This document shows positions 3,296-64,000 of a stretch of DNA of 64,000 nt, piece by piece. The first letter of the stretch is position 1. Each line of letters opens with the position of its first letter. Below the pieces are notes generated by a model. It saw only the letters and a list, made by a program, of their open reading frames with translations, had not been told where the DNA came from and searched no databases. Made by a program: the position numbers and the translations under genes. The DNA is from Terriglobales bacterium (GTDB lineage Bacteria; Acidobacteriota; Terriglobia; Bryobacterales; Bryobacteraceae), in contig JAIXQP010000038.1 in assembly GCA_027485675.1 (NCBI GenBank), positions 1-64,000 on the forward strand, read 5' to 3'.

Positions 3296-4516
3296 GTGAA
3301 CGACAGACGATACTGGTTGCCGGCCGTGGCGATGATGCTGGGGTGGGGGTTGCGCGGATTTATTGGGGGCGGGCCGTTCGGGGCGATGATTCCGGGGGCG
3401 ATGGTGATCCTGGCGCTGGGGGTGCTGTATCCGCGGCGGGACTGGACCATGCTGGCGGCCTTCGGCGCAGTGGGCGTCGGCTTTGGCGGGGAGATGACCT
3501 ACGGGCAGACCGTGGGGTTCATCGTGAAGGCCGAGACGTTCTGGTGGGGGTTTCTGGGATTGGGATTGAAGGGGGCGATCTGGGGGGCGCTGGCGGGGGC
3601 GGTGATCGTGATGGGGTTCACGCCGCGGACGCGCCTGGTGGCGTACGGCGCGGCGGCGATGATCCTGGCAACGTGGGCCGGTTGGAAGCTGATCAACGAA
3701 CCGAAGCTGATCTACTTTTCGAACCTTCTCGACCGGCCGCGGGCGGAGATCTGGGCCGGGTTCCTGCTGGCCGCGGTGGCGCTGGCGATGGTGGTGGGGC
3801 CGATGGCGCAGCGGTGGGCGGTGGTCTGTTTTGTGGGGGGCTTTATCGGGTTTGGCGTGGGTGGGGCGATTCAAGGCTTGGGGCGGATTTTTACGCCGGA
3901 GTTGAATCTGCACTGGTGGAAGTACATGGAGTTTTTCTTCGGGCTCTGCTTTGGCTGGGCGCTGGCTTGGTGCGCGGCGCATACGGCGCTGCCGGAGGAG
4001 GGTTCGGCGGAGAGTGGGGCGCCGGCGTGGTGGGCGGAGATGGCCGGGGCGGTGGTGATGACCTTGGCGCTGTTCGCGGTGGCCTGGCATCTGGACGTGC
4101 GATTTGCGTATCTGGTGGGTGGGAGCTTGTTGCTGGTGGTGTTGACCCGCTGGCCGTGGCTCGCCAAGCACGTGGCGTATAGCGTGACGTTCGCGGCGGT
4201 GGCGCTGGACCTGGCGCGCTACTGGAGCAAGGAGTATCAGCGGGGTCCGGCGGAGCCGGCCTATGCGTTGGCGGTAGCGGCGGCGCTGGGGTTTGCGTGG
4301 ATGGTGCGGCGGTGGGACGGGGAGCCGGCGCGGATGCTGAACCTGCTGATGTGGGCTTGCGTGGGGGATGCGGTGGTGAAGTTCGCGATTCATCCGAACG
4401 GACTCGCGAACGTGGTGGACCATGTCGCGGCCGGTTTCGTTTGGATGGCCGTGGCGGTGAGTTGGATGATGCGGAGGCACCATGACGGACTTGGCGCGGC
4501 TGTTAGGGCCGATTGA
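3296..4516 (+). CDS. Polytopic membrane protein of unknown function
   Basis: A 406-aa, strongly hydrophobic and glycine-rich protein with roughly ten predicted membrane segments. I see no catalytic or transporter signature. Glycine-rich turns such as GLRGFIGGGPFGAMIPG near the N-terminus and GFIGFGVGGAIQGLG in the middle give it a repeated-helix look. GTG start with a weak ribosome-binding site. Its 3' end overlaps the following methyltransferase start by 35 bases, so the two are probably translated from one message. I cannot assign a substrate. Confidence 0.65.
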   Translation: MNDRRYWLPAVAMMLGWGLRGFIGGGPFGAMIPGAMVILALGVLYPRRDWTMLAAFGAVGVGFGGEMTYGQTVGFIVKAETFWWGFLGLGLKGAIWGALAGAVIVMGFTPRTRLVAYGAAAMILATWAGWKLINEPKLIYFSNLLDRPRAEIWAGFLLAAVALAMVVGPMAQRWAVVCFVGGFIGFGVGGAIQGLGRIFTPELNLHWWKYMEFFFGLCFGWALAWCAAHTALPEEGSAESGAPAWWAEMAGAVVMTLALFAVAWHLDVRFAYLVGGSLLLVVLTRWPWLAKHVAYSVTFAAVALDLARYWSKEYQRGPAEPAYALAVAAALGFAWMVRRWDGEPARMLNLLMWACVGDAVVKFAIHPNGLANVVDHVAAGFVWMAVAVSWMMRRHHDGLGAAVRAD

Positions 4517-5066
4517 TATTTATCTGCTGGACCAGATGATGAAGGGCCGCGTGGCCCCGGGGATGCGGGTGGTGGACGCGGGGTGCGGCTATGGCCGGAA
4601 CCTCGTGTTTCTGCGCAACGAGGGCTATGACGTCTGGGGCGTGGATTGGAACGAAGACGCGGTGGCTTCGTTTGGCGATCCGGAGCGGTTCCGGGTGGCT
4701 CCCGTCGAGAAGATGCCGTTTTCGGATGCGTTCGCCGATGTGGTGATCAGCAGCGCGGTGCTGCACTTTGCGGCGGACGAGGCACAGTTCGCGGCGATGG
4801 TGCGGGAGATGTGGCGGGTGCTGCGGCCAGGCGGGATGTTGTTCGCTCGGCTGGCGTCGTCGATTGGGCTGGAGAACGAGGTGGCCGCACTCGGGGGCCG
4901 GCGGTTTGCCCTGCCCGATGGATCGGAGCGCTTCCTGGTGGACGCGGCGATGCTGGAGCGCTGGACGGAGGAGTTAGGAGGAGAGTGGCTGGAGCCCTTG
5001 AAGACTACCGTGGTGCAAGGGCTCCGGAGTATGTCGACATGGGTGATCCGCAAGGCGGTGGTTTAA
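4482..5066 (+). CDS. Class I SAM-dependent methyltransferase
   Basis: A 194-aa Rossmann-type methyltransferase of the Methyltransf_11 type. Motif I is VVDAGCGYGRN (residues about 30-40), the acidic residue that binds the SAM ribose is in GVDWNEDA, and motif IV to post-IV is VISSAVLHFA followed by WRVLRPGGMLFARL. Substrate is unknown. The ATG follows GGAGG at a four-base distance and lies inside the end of the preceding membrane protein gene, so the two are coupled. The stop codon overlaps that of the convergent gene at 5063 in a TTAA. Confidence 0.85.
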   Translation: MTDLARLLGPIDIYLLDQMMKGRVAPGMRVVDAGCGYGRNLVFLRNEGYDVWGVDWNEDAVASFGDPERFRVAPVEKMPFSDAFADVVISSAVLHFAADEAQFAAMVREMWRVLRPGGMLFARLASSIGLENEVAALGGRRFALPDGSERFLVDAAMLERWTEELGGEWLEPLKTTVVQGLRSMSTWVIRKAVV

Positions 5067-5518
5067 GCACCGCCCGCGGGAGTCACCGTGACCGGCTTGG
5101 GCGCGGCGCCGCTGGGCGTGCCGGAGCTGATGGGCACGAGGACCGGCAGCATGACCCAGGCGTTGGGGTTGAGGCGCTTCAATTCGGCGTTGAGCATGGT
5201 GATGGTGTGGGTGACGTTGTGGGCGTTGGGGTCGGCGGGGGCGCGGTCGACGCGGCCGTCCGGATTCATGCACCAGCCCTGGCTGACCATCTCGGTTTGG
5301 AAGGCGCGGATCCAGGCCCGGGTGTTGGGGCCGCAGACGCCATCGACGGTCATGGTGCCCTTCGGCGCCTTGTACTGGCCGGTGGCGTAAATCTTCTGGA
5401 GGCAATACTGGACGAGCTTGACGTCCTTGAAATAGTTGGCGGAATTGGGGCCGACCGAATAAATCACGTTGTACATCTCGGGGAGTCTGTTGTCCCCAGT
5501 TTGCATTGAGAAACCCAT
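5063..5518 (-). CDS. Peptidoglycan-binding-like protein, 151 aa
   Basis: Residues about 20-80 resemble a PG_binding_1 helical repeat: a KLVQYCLQKIY helix, then TVDGVCGPNTRAWIRAFQ, which is the usual VDGxxGpxT..AIkaFQ signature. The C-terminal third is polar, ending in a Pro/Thr/Ala-rich tail. No signal peptide is visible, which is unusual for a cell-wall binding protein and suggests either a secreted partner or a cytoplasmic use of the fold. I place the start at the ATG at 5516-5518 because AAAGGAG lies just upstream; an earlier ATG at 5554 would add 12 residues without such a site. Confidence 0.7.
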   Translation of the reverse strand: MGFSMQTGDNRLPEMYNVIYSVGPNSANYFKDVKLVQYCLQKIYATGQYKAPKGTMTVDGVCGPNTRAWIRAFQTEMVSQGWCMNPDGRVDRAPADPNAHNVTHTITMLNAELKRLNPNAWVMLPVLVPISSGTPSGAAPKPVTVTPAGGA

Positions 5519-5614
5519 TGTTTTGTCTCCTTTACTGTGGATCGTGCTATGCATCGATCTTCACTTGGGAGGGCGGACAGGGGGGCGGATTTCGATCAAC
5601 GCGGACGAAAAAAA

Positions 5615-6739
5615 TCAACCAAGCCGCCAGCGGGCGAGGCGGAGGACGGAGTAGGGCGGTGGCGGCAGTTGGACGGGGTGGGAGCCGGAGTATTTGGACT
5701 CGTACCAGAGGGTGAGGAGTTGGCCGCTCGGGAGTTCGACGGTGGAGGGGTAGCCGATGTCGCCGGTACCGTCGTCCGAGAGCACGATGGGTTCGGACCA
5801 GGTGCGGCCGTGGTCGGTGCTGAGGCGGGCGTGGTTGCCGCGGGGCGGGCGGCGGTAGCCGTAGGTCATCAGGAGGCGGCCGTCGCGGAGGCGGAGGAGA
5901 TGGGAGGGTAAGCCCCAGACGCCGATGGGGCGGGGGATGGACCAGGTCTTGCCGCCGTCCGACGATTCCGACTGGAGGGTTTCGCGTTCGTTGGGCTGGT
6001 TGTGATTGCGGATGTGGGCGAGGAGCCGGCCATCGGCGGTCTCGACGGCGTGGAATTCGTGATACTGCGTGGGGTCGTCGCCGGGGCGGGCGGGCAGGGC
6101 GCTGAGCCAGTTCCAGGTGAGGCCATCGTCGGTGGATACGGTGAAGCCGATCTGTTCGCCGTTGCGCGGGTAGCGTTTGCCGGCGTGGAGGAGGCGGCCA
6201 TCGGAGAGTTGGATGGGGCCGTGGGGGTTGGTGAGCGGGACACGGTACGGGGTGGACCAGGTGAAGCCGCCATCGGTGGAGCGGAGCATCCAGGCGCCGA
6301 GAAGGGACTCGCGCTGGGCCGGGGTGGTCGAGCGTTGCACGGCCTGCCAGCGGGCGAGGCGGGCGGGGGCCCAGTGCTGCTTGGCTTCGGCTTCGGCGAG
6401 GAGTTTTTCGTAGGCCAGGGACGTGAAGGTATTTAGGAGGAGGGCGCCGGAAGCGGTTTCGCAGAGGCCGGCGTCGCGGTCGTCGATGGGGGTGTCCATG
6501 GCGACCTGGGGCCAGGACCAGGTGCGGCCGTTGTCGAGGGAGCGGGTGAGTTCGAGGCGGCCGAAGGGGCAGATGTGATGTTCGCGGCCGCCGGAGTAGG
6601 CGGCAAGGAGTTCGCCGGAGCGGCGGCGGATGAGAGTGGGCCAGGCGTGATAGTAGCCGGGCTGGTGGGAGATGGTTTCGATGGGCTCCCGGTTAAAGCG
6701 GGGAGCGGCAAGAAGGAAGAGTTGGCGGCGGGTGAGCAT
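5615..6739 (-). CDS. Sialidase-like / BNR-repeat protein
   Basis: A 374-aa protein with five Asp-box motifs of the S-x-D-x-G-x-T-W type: SLDNGRTW, STDGGFTW, STDDGLTW, SSDGGKTW and STDHGRTW. They are spaced as in six-bladed sialidase beta-propellers, and an early RRRSGELLAAYSGG segment matches the usual first blade. The N-terminus MLTRRQLFLLAAP is a short Tat-like signal. Such proteins act outside the cytoplasm on sialic acids or other glycans, but the catalytic residues cannot be assigned here and many relatives are of unknown specificity. The reading frame stays open far upstream, antisense to the next gene; I start at 6739 because of the signal peptide. Confidence 0.8.
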   Translation of the reverse strand: MLTRRQLFLLAAPRFNREPIETISHQPGYYHAWPTLIRRRSGELLAAYSGGREHHICPFGRLELTRSLDNGRTWSWPQVAMDTPIDDRDAGLCETASGALLLNTFTSLAYEKLLAEAEAKQHWAPARLARWQAVQRSTTPAQRESLLGAWMLRSTDGGFTWSTPYRVPLTNPHGPIQLSDGRLLHAGKRYPRNGEQIGFTVSTDDGLTWNWLSALPARPGDDPTQYHEFHAVETADGRLLAHIRNHNQPNERETLQSESSDGGKTWSIPRPIGVWGLPSHLLRLRDGRLLMTYGYRRPPRGNHARLSTDHGRTWSEPIVLSDDGTGDIGYPSTVELPSGQLLTLWYESKYSGSHPVQLPPPPYSVLRLARWRLG

Positions 6740-6754
6740 CGTTAGAATGGGGAG

Positions 6755-7570
6755 GTGAACCAGACGGACAGCATAGCGCAAGAGGCGACGGCGCGAGCGC
6801 GGGCGGCTTGCCCGGAAGCAGAGATGACCGCTTTTTTTGACGAGGTGTGGGGGTGGCGGATCGGCGCTTACCGGATTCCGGATCCGGAGTTGCCGCAGAA
6901 GATGGACCGGGATTGGGCGAAGTGGGCGGCGATTGTCGGGAAGTATCGGCGGGACGTGGGTGACTACTGGTTCCATGTGTACAAGCCGCGGGCGGGGGAC
7001 GTGATCGTCGATATTGGCGCGGGCCGGGGGGAGGATGTGTTCGTGTTCTCGGAGGCGGTGGGGCCGGCGGGACGGGTTTGGGCGTTGGAGCCGCATCCGG
7101 TTTCGTTTCTTGCTTTGCGGAAGCTGTGTGAGTGGAATGGCCTGACCAATGTGACGGTGCGGCAGGTGGCTTGTGTCGAACGGGCGGAGACGCTGCAGAT
7201 TGAGACGATGCCGGTGTGGGAATCGAACTACGTCCGTGGCGGGGCGCCAACGGCGACGAGCGCGACGGTGGAGGGGCGGCCGTTTGACGAGGTGAGCCGG
7301 GAGTTGGGGATTGGTCCGATCTCGTTTCTGAAAATGAACATCGAAGGGGCGGAGCGGCAGGCGTTGCCGGGGTGCCGGGAGGCGCTTAAGCGGACGGAGA
7401 AGGTTTGCGTGGCGGCGCATGATTTTCGGGCGGCCCGGGGCGAGGGGGAGGCGTTTCGCACGCTGGAATTTGTACGGGAGTTTCTAACGGAGGCCGGGTT
7501 CCGATTGACAACGCGGGATGAGGATCCTCGGTACTACGTGCCGTATCATGTTCACGGGGTGCGGGGCTGA
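6755..7570 (+). CDS. FkbM-family methyltransferase
   Basis: A 271-aa SAM-dependent O-methyltransferase-like protein. Motif I is VIVDIGAGRGEDVFVFS (residues about 84-100), followed by WALEPHPVSFLALRKL, where the Glu-Pro-His pattern is typical of FkbM enzymes. FLKMNIEGAERQALPG is the characteristic K-x-D/N-I-E-G-x-E motif. FkbM members methylate sugar or polyketide hydroxyls; the substrate here is unknown. The start is uncertain: the GTG at 6755 sits only 15 bases from the divergent sialidase start, and the ATG at 6824 is an alternative. The stop overlaps the next ATG by one base (TGATG). Confidence 0.85.
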   Translation: MNQTDSIAQEATARARAACPEAEMTAFFDEVWGWRIGAYRIPDPELPQKMDRDWAKWAAIVGKYRRDVGDYWFHVYKPRAGDVIVDIGAGRGEDVFVFSEAVGPAGRVWALEPHPVSFLALRKLCEWNGLTNVTVRQVACVERAETLQIETMPVWESNYVRGGAPTATSATVEGRPFDEVSRELGIGPISFLKMNIEGAERQALPGCREALKRTEKVCVAAHDFRAARGEGEAFRTLEFVREFLTEAGFRLTTRDEDPRYYVPYHVHGVRG

Positions 7571-8151
7571 TGGAGCTGCGGGATGTTTATGGCCCGGCGA
7601 TTGAGCGGGCGCGGAAGAAGAGTCTGCGGCGGCTGGATGGGCACTGCCGGCGGTTTATTGAACTGTCGCCGTTTGTTTGTATGGGGACGGTGGGAAGCGG
7701 CGGTGCGGACGTGACGCCACGGGGGGACCAGCCGGGGTTTGTGCGGGTGGTGGACGAGACGACGCTGGCGATGCCGGACTGGCCGGGGAACAACCGGCTG
7801 GATTCGCTTGAGAACCTGCGGGAGGATGCGCGGGTGGGGCTGCTGTTTCTGATTCCGGGCTTTGAGGAGACGCTGCGGGTGAACGGGCGGGCGGAGATTT
7901 CGTTTGCGGAGGAGTTGCTGGGGCTTTGGGAGAAGCGGCCGAAATCGGCGCTGGTGATCCGGGTGGAGGAGGCCTTTCTGCATTGCGGGAAGGCGATGAT
8001 CCGGAGCCGGCTGTGGGATCCGGCAGCGCACGTTGACCGGAGCGCGCTGCCGTCCTATGGACAGATGATGAAAGACCAGATGGAGATTGCCGATACGGCC
8101 GCCGAGATTGAGGCGTCGGTGGCGGAGGGGTATCGGAACCGGCTGTATTAG
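7570..8151 (+). CDS. PPOX-type flavin-binding protein (MSMEG_1061-like)
   Basis: A 193-aa pyridoxamine 5'-phosphate oxidase-fold protein. Visible family features are FVCMGTVGSGGADVTPRGD near residues 36-54, the MPDWPGNNRLDSLENL segment that lines the FMN site, and VGLLFLIPGFEETLRVNGRA. The last part, FLHCGKAMIRSRLW, matches the group often annotated as MSMEG_1061-type FMN proteins. Likely role is an FMN- or F420-dependent redox reaction on a small molecule; the substrate is unknown. It is coupled to the FkbM gene (TGATG) and ends with a stop interleaved with the convergent gene (TTAG at 8148-8151). Confidence 0.8.
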   Translation: MELRDVYGPAIERARKKSLRRLDGHCRRFIELSPFVCMGTVGSGGADVTPRGDQPGFVRVVDETTLAMPDWPGNNRLDSLENLREDARVGLLFLIPGFEETLRVNGRAEISFAEELLGLWEKRPKSALVIRVEEAFLHCGKAMIRSRLWDPAAHVDRSALPSYGQMMKDQMEIADTAAEIEASVAEGYRNRLY

Positions 8152-53794: not shown

Positions 53795-55273
53795 ATGACG
53801 ATGACTGGCAGTGCCCTAGATCGGCGGAAGTTTCCGGCTCCCTTCGAGAACTACGAACTCGGCGACCCGTTCGACGAGATGTTCCACTCCTCGGGAGCGC
53901 CGCGACAGCACTATCAGGAGATCTACGATTTCTTGCTGGATCTGCCGGCTGAAGAGTTGCGGCTGCACAAGCAGGCGGCCGACCAGACGTTCCTCCACCA
54001 AGGCATCACCTTCACCGTCTACGGCCGGGACGAAGGCACCGAGCGGATTATTCCGCACGACCTGCTGCCGCGCATCATCACGGCGCAGGAGTGGGGCAAG
54101 GTGGAGGCGGGTCTTGAACAGCGCATCCACGCGCTCAATCTGTTTCTCCGCGACATCTACCACGAAGGGCGCATCCTGGCCGACGGGGTGGTGCCGCGCG
54201 ACATCATCTATAGCTGCAAGCACTTCCGGCGCGAGATGCGCGGGGTGCACGTGCCCAAGGGCAACTACCTGACGGTCGTGGGCACGGACCTGATCCGGCT
54301 GCCGGATGGTGAGTTCGTTGTGCTCGAAGATAATCTGCGGGTACCTTCCGGTGTGAGCTACATGCTGACCTCCCGTCAGGTGCTGAAGCGGATCTTCCCG
54401 AAGCTGTACCAGGCCTGCGAGGTGCGGCCGATCGACCACTACGGCCAGGCGTTGCTGGCTACGTTGCGCAACCTGAGTCCGGAGGGGCGGCCGGAGCCCA
54501 CCGTCGTGCTGCTGAGCCCGGGTGTTTACAACAGCGCCTATTTTGAACACTCGTTCCTGGCGCGGCAGATGGGCATTCAGCTTGTTGAAGGCCGGGACCT
54601 TGTCGTGCACGACAACATCGTCTACATGCGGACGACCTCGGGCCTGCGCCGCGTGGATGTGATCTACCGCCGCATCGACGACGACTTTATTGATCCGCTC
54701 TCTTTCCGCCAGGACTCGATTCTGGGGGTGCCGGGTCTGTTCAACGCCTATCGCACCGGCAACGTCACCTTGGCGAACGCCATCGGTACGGGCGTGGCCG
54801 ACGACAAGGCGCTCTATGCCTACGTCCCGAAGATCATCAAGTACTACCTGGGGCAGGACGCGATCCTCCAGAATGTCGAGACGTTCCTGGCCTCCGACCC
54901 CACCGAGCAGAAGCACATTCTGGCCAACCTCGATAAGTTCGTCGTGAAGGCGGTGGGCGAGTCGGGCGGCTATGGCATGTTGATCGGTCCGCACTCGACC
55001 AAGGAACAACAGGAAGAGTTTGGCCGGAAGATCATCGAAGACCCGCGGAACTTCATCGCGCAGCCGACCATCAGCCTGTCAACGGCCCCCTGTTTTGTGG
55101 AGGGCGGCAATATTGAGCCGCGCCATATCGACCTGCGGCCCTACATTCTGTACCAGGGCGAGAAGTCGGTGATTGTCCCGGGCGGGTTGACCCGCGTGGC
55201 GCTGCGCAAGGGTTCGCTAGTCGTGAACTCGTCGCAAGGTGGCGGCAGCAAAGATACCTGGGTGCTGAACTAA
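53795..55273 (+). CDS. Circularly permuted type 2 ATP-grasp enzyme
   Basis: A 492-aa ATP-dependent ligase-like protein. It contains the family features: an N-terminal region with [38 protein letters not shown], the ATP-grasp core with [20 protein letters not shown], and later [28 protein letters not shown] and [12 protein letters not shown]. These enzymes make amide bonds (peptide-like ligation) and are normally linked with alpha-E and transglutaminase-like proteins, as here. The substrate is unknown. Its stop overlaps the next ATG by one base (TAATG). Confidence 0.92.
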
Positions 55274-56232
55274 TGGACATGCTTTCGCGCGTTTGCGACT
55301 CCTTGTACTGGATGTCGCGCTATCTCGAGCGGGCCGAGCATACGGCCCGGGTTCTAGAGGTGCATCTTGGCCTGCAGTTGGAGTCGTTTTCCGCGGCCAG
55401 CCAGAAGCACTGGCAACGGATGATTTCAGCGCTGGGGCTGGAGCCGCCCGAGGGGTTGAGCGATAGCGACCTGGTGCAGTGGGTGTGCTTTGATCCGTCA
55501 AATCGCTTATCGATCGTCTCGAGCATTTCGTTTGCGCGCGACAACGCCCGGCAGGTGCGGGAGCACACGAGTTCGGAGATGTGGGAGCAGATCAATACGC
55601 TGTTCCACCACGTGCGGTCCAATGCGCTGCAGGAGGAGTGGGAGGCCGAGCCGGCCGATTTTCTCCGCAACGTTCGCGACGGCGCCCACCTGTTTCAGGG
55701 CATCACCGACTCGACGATGAACCACGGCCAAGGCTGGCAGTTCATTCAGTTGGGCCGGTATATCGAGCGGGCCAGCGCCACCTCGCTGCTGCTCGATGAC
55801 CACTTCAAGCACTTTCAGCCGGAAGGCGCGGGGACGATCGACTTCCAGGAGCACTCCGAGTGGATCGGTTTATTGAAGTCGCTGACGGCGTTTGAGGCTT
55901 ACTGCAAGGTGTATACGGCGGATTTGAAGCCGGAGCGCGTGGCGGAGTTCCTGCTGCTCAGCGAAGAGTTCCCCCACTCCATCCGTTTCGCCGTGGACCA
56001 GATCGACACCGTGATGAACGCTCTGCCGGATGCCATCCGGTCCGGCGGGAACCGGCCCGCGCGGTTGGCCGGGAAGCTGCGGGCGATGCTGAGTTACACG
56101 CAAATGGATGAGATTCCCCCCAGTGGCATGCACGACTTCCTTGAGAACGTGCAGCGCCAGTGCACACAGATTCACAATGCGGTTCATCAGGTTTACATCG
56201 AATATCCGATCGATGCCGCCCTCGAAGCCTAG
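55273..56232 (+). CDS. Alpha-E domain protein
   Basis: A 319-aa, mostly helical protein of the alpha-E (DUF403) family. Family elements visible are MLSRVCDSLYWMSRYLERAEHTARVLE at the start, NHGQGWQFIQLGRYIERASATSLLLD in the middle, and CTQIHNAVHQVYIEYP near the end. It is the partner of circularly permuted ATP-grasp enzymes, and one-base overlap with that gene supports a shared role. Function is not known; a peptide-bond related reaction has been predicted for the linked trio. Confidence 0.92.
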   Translation: MDMLSRVCDSLYWMSRYLERAEHTARVLEVHLGLQLESFSAASQKHWQRMISALGLEPPEGLSDSDLVQWVCFDPSNRLSIVSSISFARDNARQVREHTSSEMWEQINTLFHHVRSNALQEEWEAEPADFLRNVRDGAHLFQGITDSTMNHGQGWQFIQLGRYIERASATSLLLDDHFKHFQPEGAGTIDFQEHSEWIGLLKSLTAFEAYCKVYTADLKPERVAEFLLLSEEFPHSIRFAVDQIDTVMNALPDAIRSGGNRPARLAGKLRAMLSYTQMDEIPPSGMHDFLENVQRQCTQIHNAVHQVYIEYPIDAALEA

Positions 56233-56244
56233 AATCCTCCTCTA

Positions 56245-57228
56245 ATGTTCTACTCCATTCGACACGTCACCCGTTTTCAGTACAGTTCTCCCGTCAGCGA
56301 AAGCGTCATGGAGGTGCGGATGCGGCCGCGCAGCGAACTGCTGCAGCAGTGTCTGAAGTTCGAACTGCATGTGACGCCACGGGCGCGGGTGCAGTTCTAC
56401 CGGGACTACCTGGGGAACACCGTGCACTATTTCGACGTGCCGGGCCATCACAACCGGCTGGCGCTAATTGCCGAAGCGGTCGTTGAAGTGGAGGAGCCGA
56501 AGGATATTCCCGTGGCCGTGCCGATGGCGGCGTGGGAGGCGATTGATGCGATCTGGGCCTCCGGCGAACTCTACGAGTTTCAGACGCCGAGCCATTTCGC
56601 GCAACCGTCGGCCGAACTCGATAAGCTCATCCAGGAGTTGGGGGTGGACCGCCGGGAGAATCCGTTGACGCTGCTGCGGCGGCTGAACGAGAAGATGTAC
56701 TCGGCGTTTGAGTACGCGCCAAAGTCGACACGGGTGGATTCGCCCATCGACGAGGCGCTCGTGAGCCGGAAAGGCGTCTGCCAGGATTTTTCGCACATCA
56801 TGATCGCCATTGCGCGGAGTTTGCGCATTCCCTGCCGCTATGTCAGCGGGTATGTGTATCCGCGTTCGGAGCAGGACGGCCGGTCCACCACCCTGGCCAC
56901 GCACTCGTGGGTAGAGGCCTGGATTCCCGGTATCGGGTCGAACCAGCAGGGGCTGTGGGTGGGCTTCGACCCGACGAGCAACTGCGTCTGCGGCGACCGC
57001 CACATCCGCGCGGCGATTGGCCGGGACTACGCGGATGTGCCGCCGACCAAGGGCGTCTTCAAGGGCCGGGCGACGAGCGAATTGACGGTGGCGGTGCGGG
57101 TGATGCCGACGAATGCACCGGCCGACGATAAAGAAGAACTGGTCCTGGTGCCGGCGAGCAACAGCGGGTCGTCGCCGGTGGCGGACCACCATTGGGAACA
57201 GATGCAGCAGCAACAGCAGCAGCAGTAG
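56245..57228 (+). CDS. Transglutaminase-like cysteine peptidase-fold protein
   Basis: A 327-aa protein. The N-terminal part is a beta-rich Bact_transglu_N-like domain (SIRHVTRFQYSSPVSESVMEVR). The catalytic triad is visible as Cys179 in RKGVCQDFSH, His220 in LATHSWVEAW and Asp242 in WVGFDPTSN. Family members cleave or form amide/isopeptide bonds. Third gene of the ATP-grasp/alpha-E trio, 12 bases after the alpha-E gene. The C-terminus ends in a poly-Gln tract (seven glutamines from MQQQQQQQ), a likely flexible tail. Confidence 0.92.
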   Translation: MFYSIRHVTRFQYSSPVSESVMEVRMRPRSELLQQCLKFELHVTPRARVQFYRDYLGNTVHYFDVPGHHNRLALIAEAVVEVEEPKDIPVAVPMAAWEAIDAIWASGELYEFQTPSHFAQPSAELDKLIQELGVDRRENPLTLLRRLNEKMYSAFEYAPKSTRVDSPIDEALVSRKGVCQDFSHIMIAIARSLRIPCRYVSGYVYPRSEQDGRSTTLATHSWVEAWIPGIGSNQQGLWVGFDPTSNCVCGDRHIRAAIGRDYADVPPTKGVFKGRATSELTVAVRVMPTNAPADDKEELVLVPASNSGSSPVADHHWEQMQQQQQQQ

Positions 57229-57294: not shown

Positions 57295-58371
57295 ATGGGT
57301 ATCAACGACTTTCTCAAGAGCAGCGGATTAAAGGACTTCGTCAAGAAGCAATTTATTGACGTTCTTCAGTATGTGGAGAACGAAGACGGCGTGTTGTCGT
57401 ATCGCTTTCCGATGATGGATATGGAAATCCAGAACGGGGCGTCGCTCACCGTCCGCGAGTCGCAGATGGCCGCCTTTGTTAACGAAGGGCGCATGGCGGA
57501 TATCTTTGGGCCGGGCACGTATAAGGTGACCACCCAGAACATTCCCCTGCTGACCAACCTGATGAACTGGGACAAGATGTTCGAAAGCCCGTTCAAAAGC
57601 GACGTCTACTTCTTCTCGACCCGGCAGCAGTTGAATCAGAAATGGGGGACGCCGAATCCGATCACGATTCGGGACCGCGAGTTCGGCGCTGTGCGGGTGC
57701 GCGGCAACGGCGTCTACGCCTGGCACCTGGCCGATCCGCGCACGTTCCACCAGAAGGTGAGCGGCACGCGGGAGACCTATCGCGTGGCCGAACTCGAAGG
57801 CCAGCTTCGCGATGTCGTCATCAGCCACATGGCCGATGCGTTTGCGCAGAGCCAGATCCCGTTCCTCGACATGATCGCCAACCAGGTGGAGTTGGGCGCG
57901 CAGATCCTGAAGGCGCTCCAGCCGTCGTTCAATGAACTCGGCCTGCAACTCGATACCTTCGTGGTGCGCGAACTCAGCCTGCCCGAAGAGCTGCAGAAGC
58001 GCCTCGACGAGCGTATTTCGATGAACATGATTGGCGATATGGGCCGGTACACCCAGTTCCAGGTGGCGCAGTCGATTCCGATCGCGGCCGCCAACGAAGG
58101 CGGCATTGCGGGCATCGGCGCGGGGTTGAGCGCGGGTTATGGCATGGCGCAGGCGATGACCGGCGCCATGGCGCAGGCCTATCAGCAGCCGCAGCAGCCT
58201 CCGCCGCCTCCCGCGGCTCCGCCGGTGGCAGCGCCGGCCGCTGCTCCTGTAGCAGCAGCTCCCGGGGCCGCGCCGCAAGGGGAAACCAAGTTCTGCTTCA
58301 ATTGCGGATCGAAGATCCTACGCGTGGCGAAGTTCTGTGGAGAGTGCGGTTCGCCCCAGCCTGCGGTATAG
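57295..58371 (+). CDS. SPFH-domain protein with C-terminal zinc ribbon
   Basis: A 358-aa protein of the COG4260 type (sometimes called virion-core-like, related to YdjI). It lacks the usual N-terminal membrane anchor. The SPFH/band-7 domain spans about residues 50-260 (GPGTYKVTTQNIPLLTNLM, YFFSTRQQLNQKWGTPNPI, IVRELSLPEELQKRLDER pattern). A Pro/Ala-rich linker follows at 300-330, and the C-terminus is a zinc ribbon with CFNCGSKI and CGECGSP. SPFH proteins assemble oligomers on membranes; this type may recruit partners through the zinc ribbon. First gene of the polyamine-type run. Weak ribosome-binding site. Confidence 0.9.
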   Translation: MGINDFLKSSGLKDFVKKQFIDVLQYVENEDGVLSYRFPMMDMEIQNGASLTVRESQMAAFVNEGRMADIFGPGTYKVTTQNIPLLTNLMNWDKMFESPFKSDVYFFSTRQQLNQKWGTPNPITIRDREFGAVRVRGNGVYAWHLADPRTFHQKVSGTRETYRVAELEGQLRDVVISHMADAFAQSQIPFLDMIANQVELGAQILKALQPSFNELGLQLDTFVVRELSLPEELQKRLDERISMNMIGDMGRYTQFQVAQSIPIAAANEGGIAGIGAGLSAGYGMAQAMTGAMAQAYQQPQQPPPPPAAPPVAAPAAAPVAAAPGAAPQGETKFCFNCGSKILRVAKFCGECGSPQPAV

Positions 58372-58380
58372 TCTGTGGCT

Positions 58381-58734
58381 ATGGCAATTTCGGGGTGTGA
58401 ATGGGTGATTGAGGCGCTCGGCTGCGATGCCGAGCTCCTCAAGGATCCCGTGGCCCTTCGCGCGTTATTTGCCGACCTGATCGCCGGACTCTCCCTGCAT
58501 CCCGTGGCGGAGACCCAATGGCACCAGTTCCCCGGGCCCGGCGGGATTACGGGATTGTGCCTGCTGGCCGAGTCCCATTTGGCCTGCCATACCTTTCCCG
58601 AGTTCGGCAGCCTATGCTTGAATGTTTTTTGTTGTAAGCCGCGCCCGGATTGGGACTTTGTGTCGTATCTTAAGAAGAACTTTTTCGCGCGGGAAGTACG
58701 AGTGCGTCAGTTGGAGAGGCCCTACGGCTCCTGA
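58381..58734 (+). CDS. Small S-adenosylmethionine decarboxylase-like protein
   Basis: A 117-aa protein of the AdoMetDC proenzyme family (SpeH/SpeD type). The ESHLACHTFPEFG stretch matches the ESH...H..PE.G core. Ser65 (predicted self-cleavage/pyruvoyl residue), His70 and Cys84/Cys85 correspond to the catalytic Ser, His and Cys of class 1B enzymes. Normally FTCG follows a conserved Asp; here the sequence is LNVFCC, with Asn in its place. Product would be decarboxylated SAM, the aminopropyl donor. The next genes include a spermidine-synthase-like enzyme, which supports the reading. Start at 58381; a GTG two codons before is possible. The stop overlaps the next ATG by one base. Confidence 0.85.
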   Translation: MAISGCEWVIEALGCDAELLKDPVALRALFADLIAGLSLHPVAETQWHQFPGPGGITGLCLLAESHLACHTFPEFGSLCLNVFCCKPRPDWDFVSYLKKNFFAREVRVRQLERPYGS

Positions 58735-59378
58735 TGAGTACACGGAACGCCATTTGCCCAAATTGTGGTGCTGAAGTCCGATTCCGCTGGTCTGGCGCGG
58801 TGCAGACGACGTGCGAGTATTGCAAGTCGATCCTCGTGCGCAACGATCTCAACCTTGCGCTCGTCGGCAAAGCGGCGGACCTGCCCATCGATATCTCGCC
58901 CATCCAGATTGGGACGGAGGGCATGTTCAACAATAAGGCGTTTCAGGTGATCGGCCGGATCGTCTACCGCTACGATCTGGGCACATGGAACGAGTGGCAT
59001 CTGATGTTCACCGACGGCAGCAGCGGCTGGCTGTCCGATGCGCAGGCCGAATACGCGGTCTCCTTCGCCAACTCCTTCACGGACGCGCCGCCGGATGCCG
59101 GCGGCCTGCAGCGGGGCATGATGATGGTGCAGCACAACGTGCCGCTCTATCTCACGGTGATTTCGCACGCGCTCTACGAGACCACCGAAGGGGAACTCCC
59201 CTTCACCTCCTACGACAAGGAGAAGTGCTACTTCGCGGATTTCCGAACGAACGACGGCCGGTTTGCGACGGTGGATTACAGTGAGAATCCGCCGCTGCTC
59301 TTTCTCGGGCAGTTTGCCGAGTTCAGCAGTTTGCAGTTGAAGAATCTCAAAGAGTTTGAAGGGTGGCCCACCGTATGA
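58734..59378 (+). CDS. Zinc-ribbon DUF4178 protein
   Basis: A 214-aa protein. The N-terminus holds a zinc ribbon (CPNCGAEV at 9-16 and CEYC at 32-35). The DUF4178 domain spans about residues 55-195 with FQVIGRIVYRYDLGTWNEWHLMFTDGSSGWLSDAQ, a common pattern of the family. No membrane segment. DUF4178 proteins recur next to aminopropyltransferases and DUF350 proteins but have no known function. The gene is coupled at both ends: TGATG with the decarboxylase, ATGA with the next DUF4178 gene. Confidence 0.88.
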   Translation: MSTRNAICPNCGAEVRFRWSGAVQTTCEYCKSILVRNDLNLALVGKAADLPIDISPIQIGTEGMFNNKAFQVIGRIVYRYDLGTWNEWHLMFTDGSSGWLSDAQAEYAVSFANSFTDAPPDAGGLQRGMMMVQHNVPLYLTVISHALYETTEGELPFTSYDKEKCYFADFRTNDGRFATVDYSENPPLLFLGQFAEFSSLQLKNLKEFEGWPTV

Positions 59379-60700
59379 ACCCCACGGCTCCCCGTAAAGG
59401 GTTTGTCCCGAAGGCCAAAGCCCTGAACTGCCCGAACTGCGGCTCGCAGATTGAGCTGCGGGCTGCAGGCGCCGCCTCGGCCGTCATCTGCAACTATTGC
59501 AGCAGCACGATTGATGCGACCCATCCCCAACTGCGGATCATCGGCCAGTGGCAGGCCGCCATGACCATCGAGCCGGCGATTCCGCTGGGCTCGCGCGGTA
59601 AGCTGAAGGGCGTGTTGTGGGAGGCGATCGGCTTCCAGCAGCGGGGCATCAATGTCGATGGCACGAACTACTTCTGGCGGGAGTACGTGCTGTGGAACCC
59701 CTACCAGGGATTCCGCTACCTGAGCGAGTACAACAATCACTGGAGTTTCGTGACGCCTCTGCAAACGCTGCCGGCGCCGACCACCGTGATGGGTATGCCC
59801 GGACTGATTCTGGGCCCGGACACCTACCGGCACTTCCAGACGGCGCGGGCGTACACCTGGTTTGTCATCGGTGAGTTTCCCTGGATGGTCCAGGTGGGCG
59901 AAGCCGTGGACGCCGCCGACTATGTGTCGCCGCCGAAGATGCTCTCGTCAGAGACCACGGACAACGAGGTGACGTGGAGCCAGGGCGAGTACATGACGGG
60001 CGCGGAGATCTGGCAGGCGTTCCAAGTGAAGACGCCCTGCCCGCCGCCCATCGGCATCTTCGCTGACCAGCCGTCGCCGTACGCCGGCAAGGTGGCGGGC
60101 GCCTGGAAGTTCTACGGTCTCATGTGTATGGTGCTGTTCGCCATGATGGTGTTCTTCGCCATCACCGCGCGCGGGCAAAGGGCGTTCGACAAGACCGTGA
60201 CCATCACCCCCAGCCAGATGGCCGGCGAAAAGAGCTTCGTCACCGAGGTGTTCACGCTCGACGGGAACAACGACAACCTCGAAGTGAACATCGACGCCGA
60301 CGTATCGAACAAATGGATCTTCCTGAGCATGGCCCTGATAAATGAAGAGACCGGCCAGGCGTTCGATTTCGGCCGCGAAGTGAGCTTCTATTTTGGCACC
60401 GACTCGGACGGCAGTTGGACCGAAGGCAGCCGCAGCGATGATGTGCTGTTGCCCAACATTCCAGGCGGCCGCTACTACCTACGGATCGAGCCGGAAACCG
60501 ATCCGTCGCTCGCGGCGCCTATTTCGGCTCGCATCCAGTTGGTGCGCGGCGTGCCCTACTACTTCCGGTATTTCCTCGGGATGTTCCTGCTTCTGATTCC
60601 GCCGATCTGGACGAGTATCCGCTCGGCCGCCTTCGAGGCGAAACGGTGGAGCGAGAGTGACTATTCCGGGGGCAGCAGTTCCAGTGACGGAGACGACTGA
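59375..60700 (+). CDS. Zinc-ribbon DUF4178 membrane protein, 441 aa
   Basis: A longer paralogue-like protein. A zinc ribbon with CPNCGSQI at about 19-26 and CNYC at about 45-48 leads into a DUF4178 domain to about residue 215 (EAIGFQQRGINVDGTNYFWREYVLWNPYQGFRYL). A membrane segment follows (WKFYGLMCMVLFAMMVFFAIT), then a 140-residue extracytoplasmic region, a second membrane segment (FLGMFLLLIPPIW) and an acidic Ser/Asp tail. It appears to carry its zinc ribbon and domain in the cytoplasm and an outer beta-rich loop. Start at 59375 from the ATGA overlap. Function unknown. Confidence 0.88.
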   Translation: MNPTAPRKGFVPKAKALNCPNCGSQIELRAAGAASAVICNYCSSTIDATHPQLRIIGQWQAAMTIEPAIPLGSRGKLKGVLWEAIGFQQRGINVDGTNYFWREYVLWNPYQGFRYLSEYNNHWSFVTPLQTLPAPTTVMGMPGLILGPDTYRHFQTARAYTWFVIGEFPWMVQVGEAVDAADYVSPPKMLSSETTDNEVTWSQGEYMTGAEIWQAFQVKTPCPPPIGIFADQPSPYAGKVAGAWKFYGLMCMVLFAMMVFFAITARGQRAFDKTVTITPSQMAGEKSFVTEVFTLDGNNDNLEVNIDADVSNKWIFLSMALINEETGQAFDFGREVSFYFGTDSDGSWTEGSRSDDVLLPNIPGGRYYLRIEPETDPSLAAPISARIQLVRGVPYYFRYFLGMFLLLIPPIWTSIRSAAFEAKRWSESDYSGGSSSSDGDD

Positions 60701-60885
60701 TGAGCAAAATGTACATGGCGTATAGCATGCTGGTCGCCGGTGGACTGGCGGTTTCGAGCATTACCGGGTGGTCCCCCTTTACCCCCTATGACGAGGTGAA
60801 AGGCGTGCCCAAATCCGTTCGCAACAATCCGGGAGCCTACCGCTCCCATTACGCTGGTTATACCCGATACATGGGGGGGAAATAG
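60700..60885 (+). CDS. 61-aa small protein in the aminopropyl gene run
   Basis: A 61-residue basic protein with a weakly hydrophobic N-terminus (YMAYSMLVAGGLAVSSITGW). The C-terminal half carries PKSVRNNPGAYRSHYAGYTR, with Arg/Tyr residues that may contact phosphate or membrane. I know no family name for it. It is coupled at the 5' end by a TGATG and lies six bases before the DUF350 gene, so it is very likely real. It may be a small partner or substrate. Confidence 0.7.
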   Translation: MSKMYMAYSMLVAGGLAVSSITGWSPFTPYDEVKGVPKSVRNNPGAYRSHYAGYTRYMGGK

Positions 60886-60891
60886 CAGATT

Positions 60892-61101
60892 ATGGAATTT
60901 CGCATGGACCACTTTGTGAATGCGGTTGTTTATGCCGCACTGGGCATCGTCATCTACATGGTGGCGTTTTTCGTCATCGATAAGGCCACGCCGGGCGACC
61001 TGCATACGGAGATCTTCCAGAAGCACAACATCGCGGCGGCCATCGTGGTGGGCTTCATGATGCTGGGCATCGGCATCATCATCGCCTCGGCCGTCCACTA
61101 G
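60892..61101 (+). CDS. DUF350 membrane protein, 69 aa
   Basis: A 69-aa protein made of a single DUF350 unit with two membrane segments (AVVYAALGIVIYMVAFFVIDKATPG and IAAAIVVGFMMLGIGIIIA). It is of the YjfL type, where the unit usually occurs once or twice. The linking DK/TPGDLHTE segment is characteristic. Members recur in polyamine-linked and stress gene clusters with SPFH and DUF4178 proteins. Twelve bases before the aminopropyltransferase. Confidence 0.88.
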   Translation: MEFRMDHFVNAVVYAALGIVIYMVAFFVIDKATPGDLHTEIFQKHNIAAAIVVGFMMLGIGIIIASAVH

Positions 61102-61113
61102 CACCGAGCCGGC

Positions 61114-62610
61114 GTGGCGATTGTTCTCTTTATTTCGGTCTTTCTCATTGCGGCCTGCGGGCTGATCTATGAGTTGATCGCCGGAGCGCTGGCGAGCTAC
61201 CTGCTCGGGGACAGCATTCTGCAGTTCTCGACGGTGATTGGCAGCTACCTGTTCGCCATGGGCATCGGCAGTTGGCTGTCCCGCTATATCCATCGCGGGT
61301 TGGTGACGCGCTTTGTGACCATCGAGTTGATGGTGGGCCTGATCGGCGGCTTCTCCTCCTCGCTGCTGTTTCTGGCCTTTGCCTACACCGATGGGTTTCG
61401 CCTGCTTCTCTATTCCCTGGTCACCGTCATCGGCATCCTGGTGGGGCTGGAGATTCCGCTCCTGATGCGGATTCTGAAGGAACGGTTTCAGTTCACCGAT
61501 CTGGTGGCCAACGTCCTGACCTTCGACTATCTGGGGGCGCTGGGCGCGTCTCTTCTTTTCCCTCTGTTTTTGGTGCCGAAGCTGGGTATGGTGCGGAGTG
61601 CGCTGCTCTTCGGGCTGGTCAACGCCGGGGTGGCGGTGTGGTCGATGTACCTGTTTCGCGCGCAGATTGGTCCGGCGCCGTTGTTGCGGGCGACCGGGGC
61701 CGTGGTCATCGTTCTGCTGGGGGCCGGCATGGGGTTCGCCGACCGGATTACGGAGGCGGCTGACAACAGCATCTACGCCGACGATGTCATCTTCTCGCGG
61801 ACTACCCGCTATCAACGGATCGTGCTGACCAAGTGGAAAGACGACCTGCGGCTGTTTCTGAGTTCGCACCTGCAGTTCTCCTCACGCGATGAGTACCGCT
61901 ATCACGAGGCGCTAGTGCATCCTGGTCTGGCCGCGATTCCCGCGGCCCGGCGCGTGCTGGTGCTCGGCGGCGGCGACGGGTTGGCCGTGCGGGAGGTGTT
62001 GAAGTATCCCGGCGTGGAAAGTGTCACCCTGGTGGATCTCGATCCGGAGATGACCGAGCTGTTTACCAAGCATTCGCTGCTCAAGGAGTTAAACGGCGGC
62101 TCGTTTTCGAATCCGCGGGTGAAGGTGATCAACGCTGATGCGTTCGTCTGGCTCGATCAGAACCAGGAGATCTACGACTTCGTCATCATCGACTTTCCGG
62201 ATCCGACGAACTTCTCGCTCGGGAAGCTCTACACGACGGCCTTTTACCGGCTCTTGAAGCAGCATGTGGCGCGGTCCGGGCTGGTGGTGGTCCAGTCAAC
62301 CAGCCCGCTGTTCGCGCGGCAAAGCTTCTGGTCGATCGCCAATACGCTCAAGCAGTCGGGTTTTGCGACGTGGCCGTACCATGTATATGTGCCGAGCTTC
62401 GGCGAGTGGGGATTCATTCTGGCCGGACCCGGCGGATACCAGCCGCCGGAGTCCCTGCCCGCCGGATTGCGGTTCCTGGACAAACGGACCCTGGCGCAAC
62501 TGTTCGTCTTCCCGCAGGATATGGCGGAAGTGCCGGCCGAGCCGAATCGTCTGAACGACCAGGCGCTCGTGCGCTACTACGAGAAGGAGTGGCGGGAGAT
62601 TGCGCACTAG
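61114..62610 (+). CDS. Membrane-embedded spermidine-synthase-like aminopropyltransferase
   Basis: A 498-aa protein. Residues about 1-210 form seven or so membrane segments, including a pair in LIYELIAGALASYLLGDSI. The C-terminal domain (about 225-450) is a spermidine-synthase fold: RLFLSSHLQFSSRDEYRYHEALVHP, VLVLGGGDGLAVREVLKY, VTLVDLDPEM, DFPDPTNFSLGKLYTTAFY. GGGDG and DFPDP are the SAM-type binding and catalytic acidic motifs, and all look intact. It would transfer aminopropyl groups from decarboxylated SAM. The acceptor is unknown and may be a membrane component. GTG start. The stop overlaps the FAD oxidoreductase start. Confidence 0.9.
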   Translation: MAIVLFISVFLIAACGLIYELIAGALASYLLGDSILQFSTVIGSYLFAMGIGSWLSRYIHRGLVTRFVTIELMVGLIGGFSSSLLFLAFAYTDGFRLLLYSLVTVIGILVGLEIPLLMRILKERFQFTDLVANVLTFDYLGALGASLLFPLFLVPKLGMVRSALLFGLVNAGVAVWSMYLFRAQIGPAPLLRATGAVVIVLLGAGMGFADRITEAADNSIYADDVIFSRTTRYQRIVLTKWKDDLRLFLSSHLQFSSRDEYRYHEALVHPGLAAIPAARRVLVLGGGDGLAVREVLKYPGVESVTLVDLDPEMTELFTKHSLLKELNGGSFSNPRVKVINADAFVWLDQNQEIYDFVIIDFPDPTNFSLGKLYTTAFYRLLKQHVARSGLVVVQSTSPLFARQSFWSIANTLKQSGFATWPYHVYVPSFGEWGFILAGPGGYQPPESLPAGLRFLDKRTLAQLFVFPQDMAEVPAEPNRLNDQALVRYYEKEWREIAH

Positions 62611-64000
62611 GCGGCAGATCGTCACGGGTCTGCTCGGCGCGCCGGCGCTGGTGGGACTAGCGCCGAAAACGGACCGGCCCATCGCCGGCGGCTTCGTTTT
62701 CGAGTCGCAGGAGCGCGGACACCGCGTTCGGGACAAGGCGGCGTACCGGCCGCCGGCCGAAGCCAAACGCTCGCCGGTGGTGATTGTCGGCGGCGGCATG
62801 GCCGGCTTGTGCGCCGCTTGGCGCCTCGAGAAGAAGGGATTCCGGGACTTCGTTCTGCTCGAAATGGAGCCGCAGGCCGGGGGGAACTCGCGGTTCGGCG
62901 AAAACGAAGTAAGCGCCTATCCGTGGGGGGCGCATTACATTCCCGTGCCTAACACGGAGTCGGTCCTCGTGCGCGAGATCCTCACCGAGTTTGGCGCGTT
63001 CGCCGATGGGCAGTGGGAGGAGCGGTTCTTATGCCACTCGCCGCAGGAGCGGCTGTATATCCACGGCCGCTGGCAGGAGGGGATCGAACCGGAGATTGGC
63101 GCGACCAAGGCGGACCATGGCGAATACCAGCGTTTCCTGGGGCGAGTCGCCGAGCTGCGGGCCACGGGGGCATTTACGATTCCCATGGCGCTCGGAGAAG
63201 GGAAGGGGGGTGCGGCGTTGGCCGAACTGGATCGGCAGAGCTTCGCCGCCTGGCTCGATCGGGAGGGGTTCCGGTCGCCGTATCTGCGCTGGCTCTGCGA
63301 CTATTCGACACGGGACGACTATGGGGCCGCCCTGGGCGAGGCGTCCGCGTGGGCCGGGTTGCACTACTTCGCGGCGCGGGAGCACGAGGAAAAGGGGCCC
63401 CTGACGTGGCCCGAAGGAAACGGGTGGCTGCTGCGGAAACTGACCGCCAAATTGGGGCGCTACATCCGGACCGGACAGTTGGTGCGCCGGGTCGCCCGGC
63501 GGGGAACCGCTTGGCAGGTCGACACGGAAGGAGCCAGTTGGACGGCGGATGCCGTGATTTTCGCCGCGCCTACCTATCTGGCGCCCCACATCATTGAAGG
63601 CTTCGCCCCGCTGCCGACGCTGAGCTACTCCCCCTGGGTAGTCTCGAACCTGACTCTGCACCGGATCCCGCCGGGGGCCGAAGAGATCGCGTGGGATAAC
63701 GTGATTTACGGGTCCCCCGCGCTCGGCTATGTATCGGCGACCCACCAAAGTCTCCGCACCCGGATTGAGAAGACGGTTTGGACGCACTACTGGGCGCTGG
63801 CCGGAGCGGAGCCTCGCCAAGTTCGGCGGGAAATGCTCGCTTCGTCCTGGGAGAGTTGGCGGGACCGGGTCATTCAAGACATTCGGCGGGCACATCCCCG
63901 GATCGAAGAGTGCATTGAACGCGTGGATATCTTTCGCAATGGCCATGCGATGAGCCGGCCTGGCGTGGGTCTCCGCGGGTCGCCGGATCTAAGGCGGCTT
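62600..64000 (+). CDS. Tat-exported FAD-dependent amine-oxidase-like protein (partial at window end)
   Basis: An open frame of 467 codons that runs out of the window, starting at a TTG at 62600. The N-terminus RTRRQIVTGLLGAPALVGLA is a twin-arginine signal, which fixes the unusual start. The FAD-binding Rossmann motif is VVIVGGGMAGLCAAWRLEKK (about residues 61-80), followed by LLEMEPQAGGNSRFGE, typical of amine oxidase/protoporphyrinogen-oxidase-type flavoproteins. GGAG lies upstream. The gene overlaps the aminopropyltransferase by 11 bases, so it is coupled. A polyamine or amine oxidation role outside the cytoplasm is an inference from its neighbours. The 3' end is missing. Confidence 0.85.
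   Translation, partial: MRTRRQIVTGLLGAPALVGLAPKTDRPIAGGFVFESQERGHRVRDKAAYRPPAEAKRSPVVIVGGGMAGLCAAWRLEKKGFRDFVLLEMEPQAGGNSRFGENEVSAYPWGAHYIPVPNTESVLVREILTEFGAFADGQWEERFLCHSPQERLYIHGRWQEGIEPEIGATKADHGEYQRFLGRVAELRATGAFTIPMALGEGKGGAALAELDRQSFAAWLDREGFRSPYLRWLCDYSTRDDYGAALGEASAWAGLHYFAAREHEEKGPLTWPEGNGWLLRKLTAKLGRYIRTGQLVRRVARRGTAWQVDTEGASWTADAVIFAAPTYLAPHIIEGFAPLPTLSYSPWVVSNLTLHRIPPGAEEIAWDNVIYGSPALGYVSATHQSLRTRIEKTVWTHYWALAGAEPRQVRREMLASSWESWRDRVIQDIRRAHPRIEECIERVDIFRNGHAMSRPGVGLRGSPDLRRL

Follow-up and report, generated by a model that had tools for sequence, protein, structure and literature searches.

The 64,000-nt stretch of DNA analyzed here (the window; positions 1 to 64,000 of contig JAIXQP010000038.1 from the acidobacterial Terriglobales assembly GCA_027485675.1) ends in a run of closely spaced open reading frames (ORFs) that encode, among other proteins, an S-adenosylmethionine decarboxylase (AdoMetDC), a fusion of seven transmembrane (TM) helices with a spermidine-synthase-like (SpdSyn) domain and, between these two, a single-span peptide of 61 residues (60700–60885, + strand) that ends in lysine (codon 60880–60882). 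Judged by its conservation at related loci, the 61-residue ORF is a genuine gene and, with lysine as its final residue, a conserved member of the system, and its product is the best candidate for a modified partner, that is, a candidate aminopropyl acceptor. The first-pass annotation of the window had left the modified product open among lipid, peptide and polyamine, and listed this peptide without picking it out as the candidate. The reading toward which we lean, if only somewhat, is that the system would aminopropylate a C-terminal lysine outside the cytoplasm.

From these parts we infer a course in which AdoMetDC would make decarboxylated S-adenosylmethionine (dcSAM) in the cytosol, the seven-helix part, with its invariant buried acids, may pass this cationic compound through the membrane, and the fusion would expose its aminopropyltransferase domain at the outer surface of the inner membrane. 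There a membrane-anchored tail would receive the aminopropyl group on the amine in the side chain of its C-terminal lysine; the tail is carried by the 61-residue peptide in this genome and by a lipoprotein or a DUF4178 end elsewhere. A protein of FAD amine-oxidase fold, exported by the twin-arginine translocation (Tat) pathway, might then trim or oxidize the new secondary amine, with the SPFH, DUF4178 and DUF350 proteins as a putative membrane scaffold. Aminopropyl-lysine is a secondary amine of the kind that such FAD enzymes can oxidize.

A wider proposal, which we put forward tentatively and as somewhat short of probable, is that this represents a widespread, undescribed modification, in which the C-terminal lysine is aminopropylated, once or repeatedly into a polyamine chain, at the outer surface of the inner membrane, with the enzyme's own membrane half carrying dcSAM across; a sister branch would ligate spermidine to a C-terminal glycine, and DUF350 systems would form a class that decorates anchored tails with polyamine ends. 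If true, this would add a protein modification, give DUF350 and DUF4178 a role, bring the aminopropyltransferase systems and the YjfC/YgiC ligase systems under one logic, and suggest that dcSAM works outside the cytosol. The lysine-ended, co-encoded small protein would provide a concrete acceptor candidate for an orphan enzyme family.

The lysine-ended tail

Neither Pfam (at E 0.1) nor NCBIfam (at E 0.01) has a family that matches the 61-residue ORF. An iterative hidden Markov model (HMM) seeded by it matches 46 of the 81 loci in the first locus set (the window plus 80 others), with lysine as the last residue in all 46, and because of these matches we regard it as a genuine gene. A motif resembling VPxSVRxNPGxYRS is common mainly to the acidobacterial and gemmatimonad loci and one elusimicrobial locus. 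Many loci without an HMM match have a gap of ~130–200 nt at this place, and the ORFs selected in these gaps for their position and hydrophobicity have HK at the end.

The rule of a lysine end was written down as a prediction and then held against fresh loci. Seventeen of 19 further Acidobacteriota loci, several of them close relatives, were readable, and all 17 fit; the remaining two fitted later (L101, and L093 via L226). Across the full set of 151 loci, in a tally unfiltered on the last residue, lysine ends 89 of the 90 scoreable short TM ORFs at this position, the sole miss (L050) being a spurious longer ORF beside a genuine one that ends in YHK. The 61 unscored loci comprise 46 without a DUF4178 upstream in view, five with gaps below 110 nt, one with a gap above 900 nt, and nine in which no ORF passes the hydropathy threshold. 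Among the background short TM ORFs at the same loci, K is the last residue in 89 of 1449 and GK or HK the last pair in 13 of 1449. In the 89 lysine-ended ORFs of the tally, the residue at position −2 is G (59), H (29) or V (1), and the terminal codon is AAA in 54 and AAG in 35. Among complete ORFs of the other families in the run, a K end is found in 0/44 SPFH proteins, 2/52 AdoMetDCs, 0/37 proteins of the first DUF4178 type (DUF4178a), 8/101 DUF350 proteins, 7/150 SpdSyn fusions, 1/59 FAD proteins and 8/72 proteins of the second DUF4178 type (DUF4178b); five of these last eight are tail-fused, and the other three (L073, L081, L181) each have a separate tail. The HMM matches and the tally of lysine ends together rule out the short ORF as a chance product.

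The tail also occurs on other scaffolds. The DUF4178 protein itself ends in GGGHK, GGSHK or SGSHK in seven loci, in Comamonadaceae and relatives (L074, L077, L079, L080, L082, L083) and, at L106/L126, in Bacteroidota, the phylum of Solitalea agri (L069). Several cysteines lie between the membrane span and the GHK or SHK end in the tail-fused DUF4178 of L074, L079, L082 and L083. In diverged sets with a long DUF350, a neighboring protein of ~190–510 residues, mostly with a lipobox, ends in GFGK, RGK, GGK or SGK. A 600-kb Alteromonas plasmid (L182, 5935–12593) bears a diverged copy of the system, with transferase, speD, DUF4178, a 510-residue lipoprotein ending in SSGK, and DUF350. Where the fusion stands isolated, a GK-tailed protein with DUF350 or DUF4178 is encoded elsewhere in the genome (G069, G327, G436, G650, G704) or farther off within the same stretch (L218, L221).

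Counting all scaffolds, a tail was found for 132 of the 151 loci, a list that favors GK/HK ends and thus counts presence, with no test of the lysine rule. It consists of 123 listed picks and nine loci read by eye (L107, L109, L115, L118, L123, L180, L182, L195, L209); three spurious picks (L110, L117, L120) were replaced by proteins read at those loci, and L119 and L124 come from a single genome and share its one tail. Some of the readings, those of certain longer ORFs among them, were pre-filtered on a lysine end, unlike the tally of 90 scoreable ORFs. Loci without the short ORF were considered as breakers of the rule and rejected as such, since in many of them the tail is carried by DUF4178 or a lipoprotein, is encoded on the opposite strand (L073, L221) or lies at a second locus.

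End residue and partner enzyme

A related arrangement is found in Escherichia coli, where yjfL encodes a DUF350 protein and yjfC and ygiC are annotated (RefSeq names) as peptide–spermidine ligases, after Pederick et al., 2023 (Biochemistry 62:899; cited in PMC12568646, PMC12270671 and PMC10948618). The DUF1190 neighbors of these ligases, YjfM (L184, 9388–10026) and YgiB (L215, 1745–2416), both end in GG and seem to be the natural substrates of these two enzymes. Ten ligase-type partners, assigned by position or by the DUF1190 name, were read: E. coli YjfM and YgiB, L243, L244, and those of Rhizobium, Sulfitobacter, Loktanella, A. oryzae, Pseudarthrobacter and A. indicus (on the ligase side, seven plasmid stretches were read, out of 40 listed and 146 found). 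The last residue is G in eight and S in two, the eight beyond E. coli ending in GG or GS. A DUF350 is in view for five (yjf, Rhizobium, A. oryzae, L243 and L244); no ligase is in view in the L243 stretch, and A. brasilense (L249) has a ligase without such a tail-type neighbor. A protein ending in GGSGS (L247, 4501–4998; WP_191082256.1) adjoins a GspS-like ligase, and its label as a tRNA-dihydrouridine synthase looks wrong.

Like the window's system, the YjfL-YjfM-YjfC and YgiB-YgiC systems place a polyamine enzyme beside an anchored partner, there of the DUF1190 family, and the yjf set also has a DUF350 protein in YjfL. They differ in having an ATP-grasp ligase instead of an aminopropyltransferase, and in a partner that ends in GG, where that of the window ends in GGK. 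The run itself has no GspS-like ATP-grasp ligase, the ATP-grasp protein upstream of it being of the circularly permuted type (PF14403). Because the end of the partner follows the enzyme, with lysine beside the transferase and glycine or serine beside the ligase, the terminal residue is the likely substrate; this switch, seen with ten ligase-side proteins of which five have DUF350 in view, is the strongest argument for that assignment.

The switch also bears on the best-surviving alternative, in which the acceptor for the fusion would be a lipid head group or a small amine, with the protein that carries the lysine tail acting as a sensor, chaperone or regulator of the fusion or of DUF350. The SpdSyn domain does resemble small-amine aminopropyltransferases, the tail is cationic (mean net charge +3.9), which could suit a tail that plugs a channel or binds lipids, and tails are also found beside DUF350 or DUF4178 at loci separate from that of the transferase. 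A tail that merely binds, however, need not end exactly at lysine on unrelated scaffolds, and an end residue that varies with the partner enzyme is hard to reconcile with such a role, which leaves this alternative unlikely, if still to be taken seriously. For the favored aminopropylation of the lysine itself there are chemical parallels, as the lysine polyamines of diatom silaffins and the hypusine of eIF5A are likewise polyamine-type changes of a protein lysine side chain; those cases differ in concerning internal lysines, other enzymes, and eukaryotic or archaeal proteins.

Predicted topology, putative dcSAM supply and the candidate oxidase

The fusion is made up of a transporter-like N-terminal part (residues 1–210; 61114–61743, + strand) and the SpdSyn domain (61744–62610, + strand; PF01564, 4.5e-39). 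Its AlphaFold2 model, built from a 49-row alignment, has seven TM helices (mean per-residue confidence, pLDDT, 86.4; predicted template-modeling score, pTM, 0.71). The loops after TM2, 4 and 6 contain 9.2 Lys and Arg residues, as against 2.2 in the loops between them, and the former number is the greater in all 118 sequences. With seven helices and three such K/R-rich loops, the N-terminus is therefore predicted to lie inside and the SpdSyn domain outside. Four acids of the membrane half, E20, E71, E113 and D138, are invariant in the 49 aligned sequences and present in 97–100% of the 118, and could serve a cationic substrate. The SpdSyn domain retains the GGGDG and DxxDP motifs, its best fold match is the Thermus aminopropyltransferase 1uir, and its cysteine content is 0.29%, compared with 0.89% in 20 soluble SpdSyn-like proteins (uncorrected for relatedness). 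The fusion scores 700.6 bits with NF002956 (cut-off 472), and 141.7 bits with TIGR00417, the model of canonical SpeE, below its cut-off of 249.55.

For the tails, the number of membrane spans in DUF4178b is informative. Tail-less proteins of at least 380 residues have two spans in 51 of 60 cases, one in eight and three in one, and tail-fused proteins have one span in six of seven and three in the other; by this parity the fused tail is therefore placed opposite the zinc ribbon. Lipoprotein tails would lie outside because of their lipobox. In the short tails, the N-terminal flank of the span is the more positive in 49 of 58 when the α-amino group is counted. Most of the evidence thus points to one compartment outside the membrane for the tail, the transferase domain and the oxidase.

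This predicted topology is the chief obstacle to a second alternative, in which a cytosolic transferase domain would modify the tail before export and the seven-helix part would serve only to anchor it or to export the product. The cytosol is where AdoMetDC and dcSAM are found, the solved relatives among the matches listed are synthases that stand alone, with no membrane part, and the tail as a whole is positively charged, all as such a scheme would have it; yet the seven helices, with all three Lys/Arg-rich loops on the same side, place the domain outside, and the domain is poor in cysteine. We consider this scheme improbable.

The putative source of dcSAM, a class 1b AdoMetDC (58375–58734, + strand; PF02675, 4e-25), scores 88.7 against the Pfam cut-off of 25. 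On alignment to 1tlu it keeps Ser63, His68 and Cys83 (T. maritima numbering), with Ser55 replaced by Thr by manual count; the roles of these residues in class 1b enzymes are described in PMC10407285, which also gives diagnostic residues that tell AdoMet from ornithine or arginine as the substrate. It is the only AdoMetDC match in the genome (97.4% complete), in which no SpeE scores above the TIGR00417 cut-off, and eight of ten related genomes searched have an AdoMetDC match. The first-pass annotation had proposed a maker of dcSAM paired with a membrane-embedded aminopropyltransferase, and the kept catalytic residues, the SpdSyn motif and the fold are as expected for such a pair.

The FAD amine-oxidase-family protein (62600–64000 in the window, + strand, the ORF extending to contig position 64159; PF01593, 3.9e-14) scores 53.2 bits against a cut-off of 19.8 and carries a Tat-like twin-arginine signal (RR motif). 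The relative at L004 has a putrescine oxidase/monoamine oxidase fold by Foldseek. Of the 58 FAD proteins that could be scored (21 of 79 could not), 57 have an RRx-hydrophobic motif ahead of the Rossmann motif, and in 15 a strict lipobox follows the RR motif. By a second rule (RR plus a hydrophobic stretch), a Tat-like motif is found in 59 of 88 FAD ORFs, compared with 1/46 SPFH, 0/37 DUF4178a, 1/109 DUF4178b, 1/52 AdoMetDC and 7/152 SpdSyn proteins. Consistent with the earlier proposal of an exported FAD enzyme, an amine-oxidase fold is thus predicted for a close relative and Tat-like signals recur across the family.

That the run is simply a membrane-bound form of an ordinary polyamine (spermidine) biosynthesis operon, as the NCBIfam name of the fusion would suggest (polyamine aminopropyltransferase, NF002956, at 700.6 bits), is very improbable, since the fusion falls under the speE cut-off, an ordinary operon would account neither for the lysine tail and the Tat oxidase nor for SPFH and DUF4178, and in the work of Li and colleagues spermidine was reportedly absent and a speE mutant uncomplemented. 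That work is said to describe a functional AdoMetDC and a fusion with an unnamed acceptor, to assign a polyamine-independent role, and to find the pair of AdoMetDC and fused SpdSyn in many bacteria. As so reported, its clusters have the same enzymes as ours together with DUF350, and in both the acceptor would not be putrescine; the present analysis adds the partner with its lysine tail and the predicted placement outside the membrane. The study (Li et al., 2019; Biochem J 476:2579) is cited in PMC11237479, PMC10407285 and PMC11107197.

Several points weigh against extracytoplasmic aminopropylation of the lysine. If the domain lies outside, dcSAM has to cross the membrane, a passage without any precedent that we know of. 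The topology is based on charge and hydropathy, and the outside placement of the short tails derives only from the residues that flank the span; the whole short tail has a mean net charge of +3.9, so that plain counting favors a tail inside. The depletion of cysteine is weaker within Acidobacteriota, where the SpdSyn domain contains 0.53%. The AdoMetDC, at 69.8 bits, falls under the NCBIfam TIGR03330 cut-off of 75.65, and two of the ten genomes searched (G123, G125) have no AdoMetDC match. The FAD HMM has no match in many diverged loci. Many of the loci are closely related, so that the counts overstate their independence. No tail was found in the stretch read at 19 of the 151 loci. Sixteen of these, all in the first locus set (L033, L037, L044, L045, L048, L049, L051–L055, L064, L066, L070, L075, L078) have no DUF4178 or DUF350 in the stretch, to which the search was confined, several because the contig ends; the other three are L108 (G192), L201 (G661) and L188, at a contig edge. 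The fusion-bearing genomes G192 and G661 gave no DUF350 match in a genome search, and no tail was found near their fusions at L128 (G192) and L219 (G661). Finally, a C-terminal lysine that is fixed could instead serve as a signal for binding, sorting or processing.

The gene run, its spread and known relatives

The gene neighborhood is already known, the lysine-tailed acceptor candidate being the new element. Ravi et al., 2024 (PMC11237479) describe operons in which a fusion of 7 TM helices with spermidine synthase occurs together with DUF350, DUF4178, PspA and a novel lipoprotein. They also bring up the aminopropylation of substrates of other kinds, and in a further PspA operon of theirs the band-7 protein bears a zinc ribbon at its C-terminus. 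The multi-TM part fused to SpdSyn, AdoMetDC, DUF350 and DUF4178 of the clusters of Li et al. and Ravi et al., as far as those are described there, are all found here, and the set is accordingly less unknown than the first-pass annotation held. The second group of Ravi et al. has a PspA-CesT/Tir pair, of which there is none among the eight genes here. PspA-like proteins, recognized by eye only, occur in some gammaproteobacterial relatives. That study also has a lipoprotein of the Ctha_1186 type, whose place the 61-residue peptide may take here; the peptide stands where diverged sets have a lipoprotein, and has the GK end in common with the lipoproteins of those sets. The word lysine is absent from the main text of the study. 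In the literature searched, which was short on subscription journals and preprints, we found no paper on C-terminal-lysine aminopropylation or aminopropyl-lysine, and neither the lysine-tailed acceptor candidate nor the outside topology.

The run comprises eight ORFs on the + strand from 57295 toward the contig end, at the place that the first-pass annotation gave. With the ATG at 59375 as the start of the second DUF4178, the spacing between ORFs is −11 to +12 nt, in keeping with the overlaps of 1–11 bases and gaps of up to 12 first described; an upstream GTG start would make that single overlap 16 nt. The last ORF, which runs past the window, ends at contig position 64159; the contig stops at 64541, so that the run can be followed no farther.

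Pfam confirms the family names proposed at first (Band_7/SPFH with zinc ribbon, AdoMet_dc, two DUF4178, DUF350, Spermine_synth, Amino_oxidase), with one refinement. The first gene encodes an SPFH/Band-7 protein with a C-terminal zinc ribbon (57295–58371, + strand; PF13421, 1.2e-73; PF13240, 1.5e-05), whose HMM matches 44 of the 81 loci. Both DUF4178 proteins had been described as zinc-ribbon proteins. The DUF4178 assignment holds for the two, and in the first, a soluble protein with a zinc ribbon-like N-terminus (58734–59378, + strand; PF13785, 3.6e-13), the zinc-ribbon matches are below cut-offs; the second (59375–60700, + strand; PF13785, 1.1e-18) has an acidic C-terminus and membrane span(s), one at the strict threshold. 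The DUF350 label is right as to family and is refined to a half-length version of 69 residues (60892–61101, + strand; PF03994, 1.5e-15, profile positions 4–65 of 133).

The same gene order is found again in several phyla, and because of this recurrence the run is not due to chance. The closest fusions among the contigs compared are from acidobacterial metagenome-assembled genomes (MAGs), that of L004 being 89% identical. By record titles and plasmid taxonomy, tails occur in Acidobacteriota, Gemmatimonadota, alpha-, beta- and gammaproteobacteria, a deltaproteobacterial MAG, Bacteroidota, Verrucomicrobiota, Leptospiraceae and Elusimicrobia. A fusion above the NF002956 cut-off is present in 21/119, 8/148, 12/184, 7/145, 20/120 and 3/35 genomes of six group samples.

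An upstream trio, encoding a circularly permuted ATP-grasp, an Alpha-E and a transglutaminase protein (53795–57228, 66 nt upstream), was considered as part of the system and rejected; it adjoins the run only in the window and in L004 among the 81 loci, several of which end early at contig ends, and is probably a separate operon. In the Solitalea agri locus (L069, ~4446–8000), the DUF4178b–DUF350 pair is tandemly duplicated ahead of the transferase.

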